Below are positions 55,131 through 64,000 of a DNA stretch of 64,000 nucleotides, piece by piece; the stretch's first letter is position 1; the number at the start of each line of letters is the position of its first letter. A program made the translations under genes and the position numbers. The DNA lies in assembly GCF_002221595.1 (NCBI RefSeq), contig NZ_NHMP01000002.1, forward strand, positions 248,001 to 312,000. The letters run 5' to 3'. Source of the DNA: Turicimonas muris (lineage in GTDB: Bacteria > Pseudomonadota > Gammaproteobacteria > Burkholderiales > Burkholderiaceae_F). The notes under the pieces were generated by a model. It did no database searches. It worked only from the letters and a program-made list of their open reading frames with translations, and was not told where the DNA came from.

Positions 55131-55155
55131 TTTTTGCTGAAACCTCATGATGAAC

Positions 55156-55182
55156 AAAAAGCCGGTAAAAACCCGGCTTTTT
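55156..55182 (+). terminator. Terminator after pgk
   Basis: 10-bp stem AAAAAGCCGG / CCGGCTTTTT with 7-nt loop, T-run on the 3' arm. Confidence 0.85.
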
Positions 55183-55263
55183 GCAAAAAGTATTTTGAAA
55201 AAGAAAAAAACGCGATTTTTTTAATAAACTAATCTTCGTTGAAACGAAATTAAGTTCAAAAAA

Positions 55264-55356
55264 ATGTCTTATATCAATAACACAGCCGGCTATGAAGCGT
55301 TTACCAACGCCGCTGCTGCTATTGATTTTTCTCCGCGAATGTGCCGAATGTGCTAA
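55264..55356 (+). CDS. Putative leader peptide (30 residues) ending in Arg-Met-Cys-Arg-Met-Cys
   Basis: A short ORF in the metQ upstream region. Its last codons are a tandem repeat, CGA-ATG-TGC CGA-ATG-TGC, then TAA. The peptide has no signal or membrane segment and resembles an attenuation leader: Met and Cys codons placed directly before a terminator-like hairpin that starts one base after the stop. CGA is also a slow-decoded arginine codon in many proteobacteria. The ribosome site is weak. The sulfur-amino-acid theme fits metQ downstream, which makes regulation by Met or Cys supply the natural hypothesis. Translation itself is unproven. Confidence 0.6.
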   Translation: MSYINNTAGYEAFTNAAAAIDFSPRMCRMC

Positions 55357-55395
55357 CCCAATTCCCTTAAAGGATTGGGCATCTTTATATTTTTC
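55357..55395 (+). terminator. Terminator-like hairpin directly after the leader ORF
   Basis: CCCAAT and ATTGGG form the outer stem (55357-55362 / 55374-55379), extended by CC/GG after a one-base bulge, followed by CATCTTTATATTTTT. A ribosome sitting on the last leader codons would cover its left arm. Confidence 0.6.
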
Positions 55396-55636
55396 TATCG
55401 AAAATTCTATAAAGAATAAATATATTTTTAAATATATTTAATTAGCAAAAGATCATGAATTCGGCAATTACAGACATAAAAGTATCTACAACTCACACAA
55501 ACTTTCTCTGTACCTCCGCAGAGTTCGAGAAGTTATTGTTGAAATTAGTTTCCCATCAAATTCGCGTGTCCGCCGAGTTTTACGACACGCTAGGCATCTC
55601 CATTTCTAATTTCTTATTACTTTCAAAGGAATCATC
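55396..55636. other. 240-bp AT-rich stretch between leader hairpin and metQ
   Basis: Contains AAATATATTT direct repeats (about 55417-55440). A 62-codon ORF (55455-55643) overlaps the metQ start codon by 7 bp; it has no clear ribosome site and no recognised family, so I do not call it a gene, though coupling to metQ cannot be excluded. Confidence 0.35.
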
Positions 55637-56446
55637 ATGTTAAAAAGACAAACCTTAAAGCTGCTTTCCTCTCTCGTCATTGTTTCCGCCTTAGCTTTGA
55701 CAGGCTGCCAGGATAAGAAACCTTCCGAGCTGAAGGTAGGAGCAACTGCCGGTCCGCACGCTGCTAATGTTCAAAAAGCTGCTGAAGTTGCAAAGAAAGA
55801 CGGCCTAAACGTGAAGGTAGTTGAGTTCACCGATTACATCACGCCGAATAAGAGCTTGGCTGAAGGAGCTCTGGACGTGGTTGTCTATCAGCATGAACCT
55901 TTCTTGAATAACTTTAACAAACAGCAAGGTAGCGACCTTAAGAATATTGGCAAAGCAGTGGTACAGCCGATGGGCTTTTACTCTAACAAGATTAAAAGCC
56001 TGGAGACAATTCCTGCAGGCGCAACGGTCGCCGTCCCAAATGATCCGACCAATGAGGGCCGAGCTTTGATCCTTCTTGAACAGGCCGGTCTCATTAAGCT
56101 GAAAGCCGGTGCCGGCGGTACCGCTACTGTTCATGAGATTATTGAAAATCCGAAGACATTGAAATTTAAAGAACTCGAGGCTGCACAGCTGCCAAGAAGT
56201 TTAGAGGATGTTGATTTTGCCTGCATTCCGATGAACTATGCAATCAGCGGATCTTTATCTCCTCAGAAACAAGGTTTTTACTTTGAATCCAAGGATGCTC
56301 CGTACGCTTTGATTGTCATCGCTTCTCGTGCTAATAATGCAAACGATGAGCAGGTTAAGAAATTTGTGAAAGCCTTCCAATCTCCGGAAGTGGCTAAGTT
56401 TATAAAGGAGGAGTTTAAGGGTGCCGTTGTACCCGCCTGGGAATAA
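55637..56446 (+). CDS. metQ: MetQ/NlpA-type methionine-binding lipoprotein
   Basis: 269 residues with a lipoprotein signal (lipobox LALTGC, lipidated Cys at about 23), then KVGATAGPHAANVQKAAEVAKK, and the ligand-site blocks VYQHEPFLNNF, VAVPNDPTNEGRALILLE and FACIPMNYAISG, all MetQ-like. It would capture D- or L-methionine for an ABC importer. No metN or metI is adjacent, so it is either an orphan that serves a transporter elsewhere or a solitary paralogue. AAAGGA is 7 bp upstream of the ATG. The leader-peptide region above suggests regulation. Confidence 0.9.
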   Translation: MLKRQTLKLLSSLVIVSALALTGCQDKKPSELKVGATAGPHAANVQKAAEVAKKDGLNVKVVEFTDYITPNKSLAEGALDVVVYQHEPFLNNFNKQQGSDLKNIGKAVVQPMGFYSNKIKSLETIPAGATVAVPNDPTNEGRALILLEQAGLIKLKAGAGGTATVHEIIENPKTLKFKELEAAQLPRSLEDVDFACIPMNYAISGSLSPQKQGFYFESKDAPYALIVIASRANNANDEQVKKFVKAFQSPEVAKFIKEEFKGAVVPAWE

Positions 56447-62595: not shown

Positions 62596-64000
62596 GTGTG
62601 CTCGGCATGAGTGCAATCTAAAGGGTGAAAGTCCCGAGCTCGCCCGCTAGTGGGAAGAGCTAGCGAATCTGCAAGGTGTGTGCAGTGATGTACAGGCTGA
62701 AAGAAGCAGATAGCAAAACCTTGAACTGACGAACAGAAATCGTCTATAGGCAGGCGCAGAGGATGAGAATGCAAAATAATTCGAAGTCCGAAAACTAGCC
62801 GGAATCTGCGAATGTAAAGACGGCAGTTACATGAGGTGAAAGAGTGCACTCTTACCCGAGGAGGTCTTGTCAGCTCCGACAGGGGTAGTAACAACGAATG
62901 GCAAGAAGTCAGCAGAGGTCATAGTACCCAAGAGTAAGGGGGAAGGACCGAACTAGTAAACCGTGAAAGGAGGAACGCTGCAAGGCAAGAATGGAAAAAA
63001 AGGAAGTACACCTAGGCTCTGAAGGATAGTGCGGAACACGAAAGTTAAGAGCAAAGGAGTTCGATGACACCAAGCAGACGGAACTTATGAGTAGCGAAAC
63101 ATTTGGAGAAATCACGCTCGAAAGGATACTCGCCAGAGGGAACCTAATGCAGGCTCTGAAGAAGGTGGAAGCAAATAAAGGTTCATGCGGTGTTGACGGC
63201 ATGGAAACAAGTGAGCTGAGAGCCTACTTCAAATCAAACCCTGGGAAACTTACAGAGCAAATTCTTCAAGGTACTTTTAAGCCCTCGCCTATAAGGAGGG
63301 TTTACATCCCAAAAGACAACGGGGAGCAACGTCCCTTGGGGATACCCACGGTAATCGACCGCTTTGTGCAACAGGCAATAGCCTTAGTACTGAGCGAGGA
63401 ATACGAAAAGATTTTTGTGGATCACAGCTATGGGTTCAGACCCAACAGGGACTGCCGGCAAGCCGTAAGGCGAGCTATGGAGCATATTCGAGAGGGATAC
63501 GAATGGGTAATCGATATCGACCTACGTAAGTTCTTTGATACGGTTAACCATGATTTCCTAGTTCAACTCCTATCCAGAAGGATAAGGGACGGACGTGTAA
63601 TCTCTCTAATCCATAAATTCCTTCGAGCGCCGATTAGCGAGGAAGGGAAAGTTGGGAAAGCGAATCGACTCGGCTGTCCACAAGGGGGTGTTATATCTCC
63701 CGTGTGTGCGAACGTAGTTCTTCATGAACTGGATATAAAACTCCGTGAGAAGAACATGAGAGCATGCAGATACGCCGACGACGCCGTCATCTTCTGCAAA
63801 AGCAGGAAAGCCGCGGAGAGAGCACTTAAGTGGATTAAGAAATTCATCGAGAGCAAGCTTCACCTCAGAGTCAACGAGGACAAGACAAAAATTCTAAAAG
63901 TAGGAAGCCCCGATGTTCAATTCCTAGGTTTTAGCTTCACGACTAAAGTCTCAAAGGCTAAAAAGATGAAATTCCCGCAATACCGATACTTCCCTACTGT
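62596..64000 (+). mobile_element. Group II intron (5' part; runs off the window)
   Basis: The 5' end GTGTGCTCGGC is a standard group II start, followed by the characteristic GTGCAATCTAAAGGGTGAAAGTCCC domain I segment and, further on, GCAAGAAGTCAGCAGAGGTCATAGTACC before the ORF. The maturase starts about 490 bp in. Domains V and VI and the 3' end lie beyond the edge. It is a self-splicing, retrohoming mobile element on the plus strand. Confidence 0.9.
63087..64000 (+). CDS. ltrA: Group II intron reverse transcriptase/maturase (partial, LtrA-like)
   Basis: 304 codons up to the window edge, no stop. RT motifs in order: GVDGMETSELRAYF, RPLGIPTVIDRFVQQA, HSYGFRPNRDCRQAV, DIDLRKFFDTVNHD, GCPQGGVISPVCANVVLHELD, and the catalytic RYADDAVIF, then VQFLGFSF. 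Thumb/X and any endonuclease domain lie outside. The start at 63087 is inferred: the strong AAGGAG (63053-63058) serves a separate 8-codon ORF (63064-63090) whose stop TGA overlaps this ATG, suggesting coupling. The frame is also open upstream to 63030 without another ATG. Confidence 0.9.
   Translation, partial: MSSETFGEITLERILARGNLMQALKKVEANKGSCGVDGMETSELRAYFKSNPGKLTEQILQGTFKPSPIRRVYIPKDNGEQRPLGIPTVIDRFVQQAIALVLSEEYEKIFVDHSYGFRPNRDCRQAVRRAMEHIREGYEWVIDIDLRKFFDTVNHDFLVQLLSRRIRDGRVISLIHKFLRAPISEEGKVGKANRLGCPQGGVISPVCANVVLHELDIKLREKNMRACRYADDAVIFCKSRKAAERALKWIKKFIESKLHLRVNEDKTKILKVGSPDVQFLGFSFTTKVSKAKKMKFPQYRYFPT

Follow-up and report, generated by a model that had tools for sequence, protein, structure and literature searches.

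Organization of the metQ upstream region

The window analysed here is a 64,000-nt stretch of the Turicimonas muris genome, and the coordinates below refer to its plus strand. At 55637–56446 it carries metQ, which encodes a methionine ABC transporter substrate-binding lipoprotein (253.3 bits to TIGR00363, cut-off 228.85). The upstream gene, pgk, has a terminator-like hairpin at 55155–55183 (arms 55155–55165 and 55173–55183, 100% complementary; fold z −4.31). Between the two, at 55264–55356, an ORF of 30 codons and a TAA stop encodes MSYINNTAGYEAFTNAAAAIDFSPRMCRMC; counterparts of this leader ORF precede metQ-family genes in five other genomes. The tandem exact 9-nt repeat CGAATGTGC CGAATGTGC (55336–55353) stands directly before the TAA, and its unit, CGA-ATG-TGC, reads Arg-Met-Cys, two copies of which close the ORF. 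The distance from the stop to the metQ start is 280 nt. With up to one mismatch, the 17-mer CGNATGTGYCGNATGTG has a single occurrence in the whole genome.

Two hairpins are associated with the leader ORF. Hairpin A (55273–55326) lies within it (p 0.029 against dinucleotide shuffles, 0.037 against synonymous versions). Hairpin B (55357–55379, arms CCCAATTC and GGATTGGG) begins immediately 3' of the TAA. It is followed by the stretch CATCTTTATATTTTTC (55380–55395), which is only loosely U-rich, and by a second, A+T-rich hairpin at 55382–55415. An earlier note on this DNA had described the ORF with its tandem ending, a hairpin immediately after the stop and metQ downstream, and each of these elements is confirmed. 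The segment 55354–55395 folds at −9.6 kcal/mol, with equally stable shuffles in 4 of 200 cases, and the whole of 55264–55400 is no more stable than its shuffles (z −0.83, 38/200). A terminator consensus scan of 5 kb on both strands yielded 8 terminator-like sites, with 6.3 expected; hairpin B alone is an unremarkable terminator.

The ORF list contains a second small ORF, of 62 codons, at 55455–55643. It overlaps the metQ start, and translational coupling is possible. The other Turicimonas genome (G064) has a 59-codon ORF that ends 2 nt before metQ and by eye bears little likeness to the 62-codon ORF. Just 5' of the leader ORF, the inverted repeat TTCGTTGAAACGAA (55235–55248) is contained in a longer imperfect repeat (55219–55264); it falls in the likely promoter region and could be an operator. 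Further downstream, two Rfam group II intron pieces, RF02001 and RF01998, are present on the plus strand at 62679–62948.

A metN-like gene with an adjacent permease gene (metI by eye) was found on another contig, where it scores 421 bits, under the cut-off of 499.7; these genes lack the leader, so the metQ gene of the window stands alone. In the same genome, neither a tandem metQ pair (L148) nor a metNI-like operon (L303) has such a leader. The tandem metQ-like genes of L148 (G000:C20) are located beside glnK/amtB-like genes, as judged by eye.

Recurrence of the leader and conservation of its ending

The family set comprised 67 genomes, 41 of them with metQ-family genes at E ≤ 1e-20. The sample consisted of 138 regions upstream of these genes (131 regions of 116 kb, and 7 more); at least two matches truncated at contig ends (G014:C11, G034:C35) fell outside it, as did inner genes in some of the tandem sets. 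In nine regions from six genomes and four genera, a short ORF ends in Arg-Met with Cys codons close by. Single leaders were found in the window, in G064 (MTSLNNRSERAALISVSAVIVSLLRMRMC), in G050 (MSFILINSLFDSLHSEGVGVAQNRMCRM) and in G015 (MNTAFFFCATLSTALLIVQCRRSMACRMCRI). The genome G049 has two, MNSTLTHTVKASLHSECLVLSNRMCRM and, before a metQ paralogue, MNTRTAIFKLEALLSVSCCPCCQRMC, and G034 has three, all before metQ paralogues (MTMFSTNSFVCNRFHVIVELTCRM, MSLRNTNANFSINHSYVITLCCRM and MNNTFTTTNQTNEVFTSCFGRACRMCFRMC). The distance from stop to gene ranges from 104 to 280 nt. It is on this conservation in other genomes that we base the view that the arrangement did not arise by chance. No match at gathering score to Rfam 15 was obtained for any of the nine leaders, that of the window included.

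The nearest MetQ outside the genome of the window is 82–83% identical and belongs to a genome listed under the same genus. The leader peptide, used as a protein query against the 67 genomes, matched in nine at E up to 1, and none of the matches was good (best non-self 0.114). The N-terminus of the leader is free, and the ending is conserved. The common core is CGA-AUG followed by UGA or a Cys codon. The earlier note had named conservation of the RMCRMC ending in relatives as a check; the leader and this core are common to the nine regions, and the exact RMCRMC ending was found in this genome only.

We counted the core without the Cys/Met filter used for the ORFs. In the 131 upstream regions, CGAATGTG, an 8-mer picked after the endings had been seen, has 16 sense copies in 12 regions, 4 antisense copies and no reversed copy. 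Each of the 16 sense copies is read in frame and falls within the final seven codons of a short ATG ORF. It is absent from the 7 additional regions, which makes 12 of 138 overall. The filter itself passes 22 sense and 16 antisense ORFs and is therefore weak evidence alone; it is the core that discriminates. Three further CGAATGTG endings (L265, and L266 and L267, which encode the same peptide in two genomes) are not counted among the nine, as they have no in-ORF hairpin and no Cys codons; since the antisense control had four chance matches, these endings may be chance.

The core is not confined to leaders. Most of the nine came from looking specifically in front of metQ-family genes; genome-wide, TGYCGAATGTG has 30 matches in 18 genomes, of which seven are these leaders; none of the 23 others belongs to a comparable leader, as judged by eye. 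Among them, L192 ends a 9-codon ATG ORF (MLFNEYCRM) and L199 a 10-codon frame lacking an ATG (..FCRMC), and neither was counted as a leader; at the remaining non-leader matches, inspection by eye revealed no short ORF ending of this type. The motif CGAATGTGA occurs at 26 places in the genomes G000 (that of the window) and G034. Two are G034 leaders, one (L285) ends a 68-codon frame with no Cys at its end and was rejected, and none of the rest is leader-like by eye. An order-wide search of 399 genomes gave 13 with a match, and outside the window no leader was seen among the matches listed; L057 and L060 have an ATG ORF ending in RMCRM, but in other settings. Outside the family, 73 loci (L075–L147) contain no R-M(-C) ending before metQ. 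Cys-rich short ORFs before metQ in Oceanimonas and Zobellella were set aside, as by eye they lie inside the end of the upstream gene in another frame.

The last six codons of the nine leaders include 15 Cys, 14 Met and 14 Arg codons of 54, compared to 8 Cys, 2 Met and 9 Arg among the other 186 codons (start codon aside), an enrichment that is biased upward because the endings were partly found by the Cys and Met filter. At least one Cys is present in the last six codons of every leader. Synonymous changes, which the earlier note had named as a check, are seen in the Cys codons, which vary between TGC and TGT even next to the core, and not in the Arg codon preceding AUG. That codon is CGA in 14 of 14 cases, so codon or nucleotide choice matters, not amino acids alone. 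The share of CGA among Arg codons is 11.5% in the window ORFs and 6.6–19.2% in small samples from four other genomes. Where Met is the final codon, the stop is UGA (4/4), whereas UGA ends 6 of 46 window ORFs and none of 25 sampled G034 ORFs; the CGA and UGA counts weigh less because of shared descent.

RNA folding of the leaders

The part of the leader ORF before the ending folds better than shuffles with p between 0.003 and 0.13; seven of the nine are at or below 0.05, and the other two are at 0.097 and 0.13. The combined Fisher value is 9e-9, that against a synonymous-codon null is 1.6e-10, and that for the 45 nt after the stop is 2.3e-5; these values treat as independent nine leaders that are not fully so. 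In the same kind of region, control ORFs reach p ≤ 0.05 in 5 of 67 cases and random segments in 32 of 238, against seven of nine leader ORFs. Folding of the 45 nt after the stop reaches this level in five of nine leaders versus 9 of 67 controls; a retained hairpin in relatives was among the checks proposed in the earlier note.

For base pairs transferred between homologous leader ORFs (G000/G064 and G049/G050), retention fell short of significance (p 0.10 to 0.39). On these grounds covariation was rejected for the in-ORF hairpin, and the claim is limited to excess folding, not conserved pairs. Over the nine leaders, pairing between the ORF and the first 60 nt past the stop is not in excess (Fisher 0.85), and thus there is no sign of an antiterminator. 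The ending and the downstream RNA likewise show no pairing excess in three stretches (Fisher 0.80, 0.14 and 0.31), so long-range pairing of the ending was rejected as a general feature.

A U-tract after the hairpin is present in only three of nine leaders as judged by eye (the window, L150 and L214), and so intrinsic termination, which the earlier note had taken as the switch, does not hold as a general one. The last CGA-AUG is separated from the first paired base beyond the stop by 6–20 nt. With a ribosome footprint of the generally known size, a waiting ribosome would thus reach the left arm in some leaders and not in others. A Shine-Dalgarno-like AAAGG precedes two of the nine ORFs by eye, that of the window not among them.

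Possible mechanism and comparison with known systems

The ending, its frame, its codon choice and its position before metQ-family genes are conserved, and the leaders fold in excess of controls. We consider it somewhat probable that the leader is ribosome-sensed and controls metQ; that it is translated and stalls ribosomes, which amino acid it senses and how it switches metQ are inferred. The codons of the ending, and its recurrence before metQ-family genes, suggest a sensor of methionine or cysteine supply. A ribosome would translate the short ORF behind RNA polymerase, which might pause at hairpin A and let the ribosome catch up, and near the end of the ORF it would meet CGA, reported to be slow in the Salmonella his leader (PMC4046918), as well as AUG and Cys codons. 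With an ample supply of charged Met-tRNA, and probably of charged Cys-tRNA too, the ribosome would pass, terminate at the stop and leave. The hairpin after the stop could then form, and metQ would be held down through premature termination, intrinsic or Rho-dependent, or through the folded leader. Scarcity of Met or Cys would make the ribosome wait at CGA-AUG-UGN, where it would cover the left arm of the hairpin or exclude Rho, and metQ would be made. The sequence does not tell intrinsic termination, Rho and translation apart as the switch. The attenuator interpretation of the earlier note is, as a whole, partly supported.

CGA is read by an inosine tRNA. A speculative and rather unlikely reading is that, while CGA occupies the P site, decoding of the AUG that follows depends to an unusual degree on the supply of Met-tRNA; a single Met codon could then act as the control codon, and CGA would be fixed for this reason. 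A different role of the same codons is also unlikely, and slightly more so: CGA-AUG-UG may be an intrinsically slow or arresting site, through which the leader reports how fast translation proceeds in general, Arg-tRNA, or a small molecule that acts on the ribosome at termination, and not a shortage of Met or Cys. It would suit the invariant Arg and its 14 of 14 CGA codons, the UGA stops after a final Met and the poor translation of CGA reported from a Salmonella his-leader assay (PMC4046918). Such a pause needs no Cys, yet every one of the nine leaders has Cys among its last six codons (15/54), and the genes downstream are methionine-transporter genes.

The 8-mer recurs in leaders that otherwise differ in sequence, and CGAAUGUG could be a target, in RNA or DNA, of a protein or a small RNA, the surrounding ORF being incidental; but the 16 sense copies are all in frame close to the end of an ATG ORF, and the Cys codons beside the core vary between TGC and TGT, and we regard such a site as improbable. 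Less probable still is a translational switch proper to Turicimonas, in which sequence on either side of the second small ORF's start is paired with the ending until a waiting ribosome releases that start, which is coupled to metQ. In both Turicimonas genomes an ORF of 62 or 59 codons ends at the metQ start, and pairing of the motif with RNA 60–125 nt past the stop has p 0.085 in the window and 0.009 in G064. Against this, the three downstream stretches gave no pairing excess over the nine leaders, the other seven leaders have no comparable second ORF, and the reading was chosen after the data had been seen.

Proteobacterial methionine and cysteine genes are usually seen as being under repressors or SAM riboswitches. 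A literature search on Met leader peptides, in which few subscription journals were covered, gave no metQ leader of this type among the matches listed, and RMCRMC itself returned unrelated mentions only. If the ribosome-sensed reading is true, a recurring leader with Met and Cys codons before metQ adds ribosome sensing to the controls in these gut bacteria. The SAM riboswitch (S box) is likewise a known control of methionine genes; unlike it, the metQ leaders have no Rfam match (0/9). SAM riboswitches were seen in Dialister (L075, 457–558; L076, 601–698), about 1.8–1.9 kb upstream of the metQ-like match. The Dialister metQ products are 51–58% identical to this betaproteobacterial MetQ, and together these sequences suggest gene transfer.

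In arrest peptides of the tnaC type, the ribosome is halted where a short ORF ends. The metQ leaders would resemble them in this point and, in some cases, in the UGA stop. They differ in that the Arg position is tied to the CGA codon and in that, by eye, the nine leaders share the ending only, whereas residues further up the nascent chain are not conserved.

Cysteine leader peptides of Actinobacteria are reportedly the subject of a study by Canestrari et al. 2020. Like the metQ leaders, the actinobacterial ones are described as short ORFs whose Cys codons lie close to the stop, and in Mycobacterium a terminator was not found and Rho was suggested (PMC1262725). That system belongs to another phylum and to cys or cbs genes instead of metQ, and the metQ leaders mix Cys with Arg-Met. 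A run of Cys codons near the stop is not present in the window, which has two separated ones; adjacent Cys codons occur in two of the nine leaders (CCPCC in the second G049 leader and CC in one from G034).

The trp, his and leu leaders are ribosome-mediated transcription attenuators of amino-acid operons. The metQ leaders share with them a short ORF that contains codons of the amino acid concerned (in all nine, although partly selected by the filter), hairpins and a downstream gene for that amino acid. In contrast to these attenuators, the gene behind is a transporter part, alternative antiterminator pairing was not found over the nine leaders, and a U-tract is seen in three of nine. The control codons of the metQ leaders are at the very end, after the in-ORF hairpin, and the Met codon is preceded by a fixed CGA. 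Among ribosome-sensed leaders this fixed CGA would be the unusual feature, and on it the tuning of an attenuator through codon choice could be tested in a natural setting.
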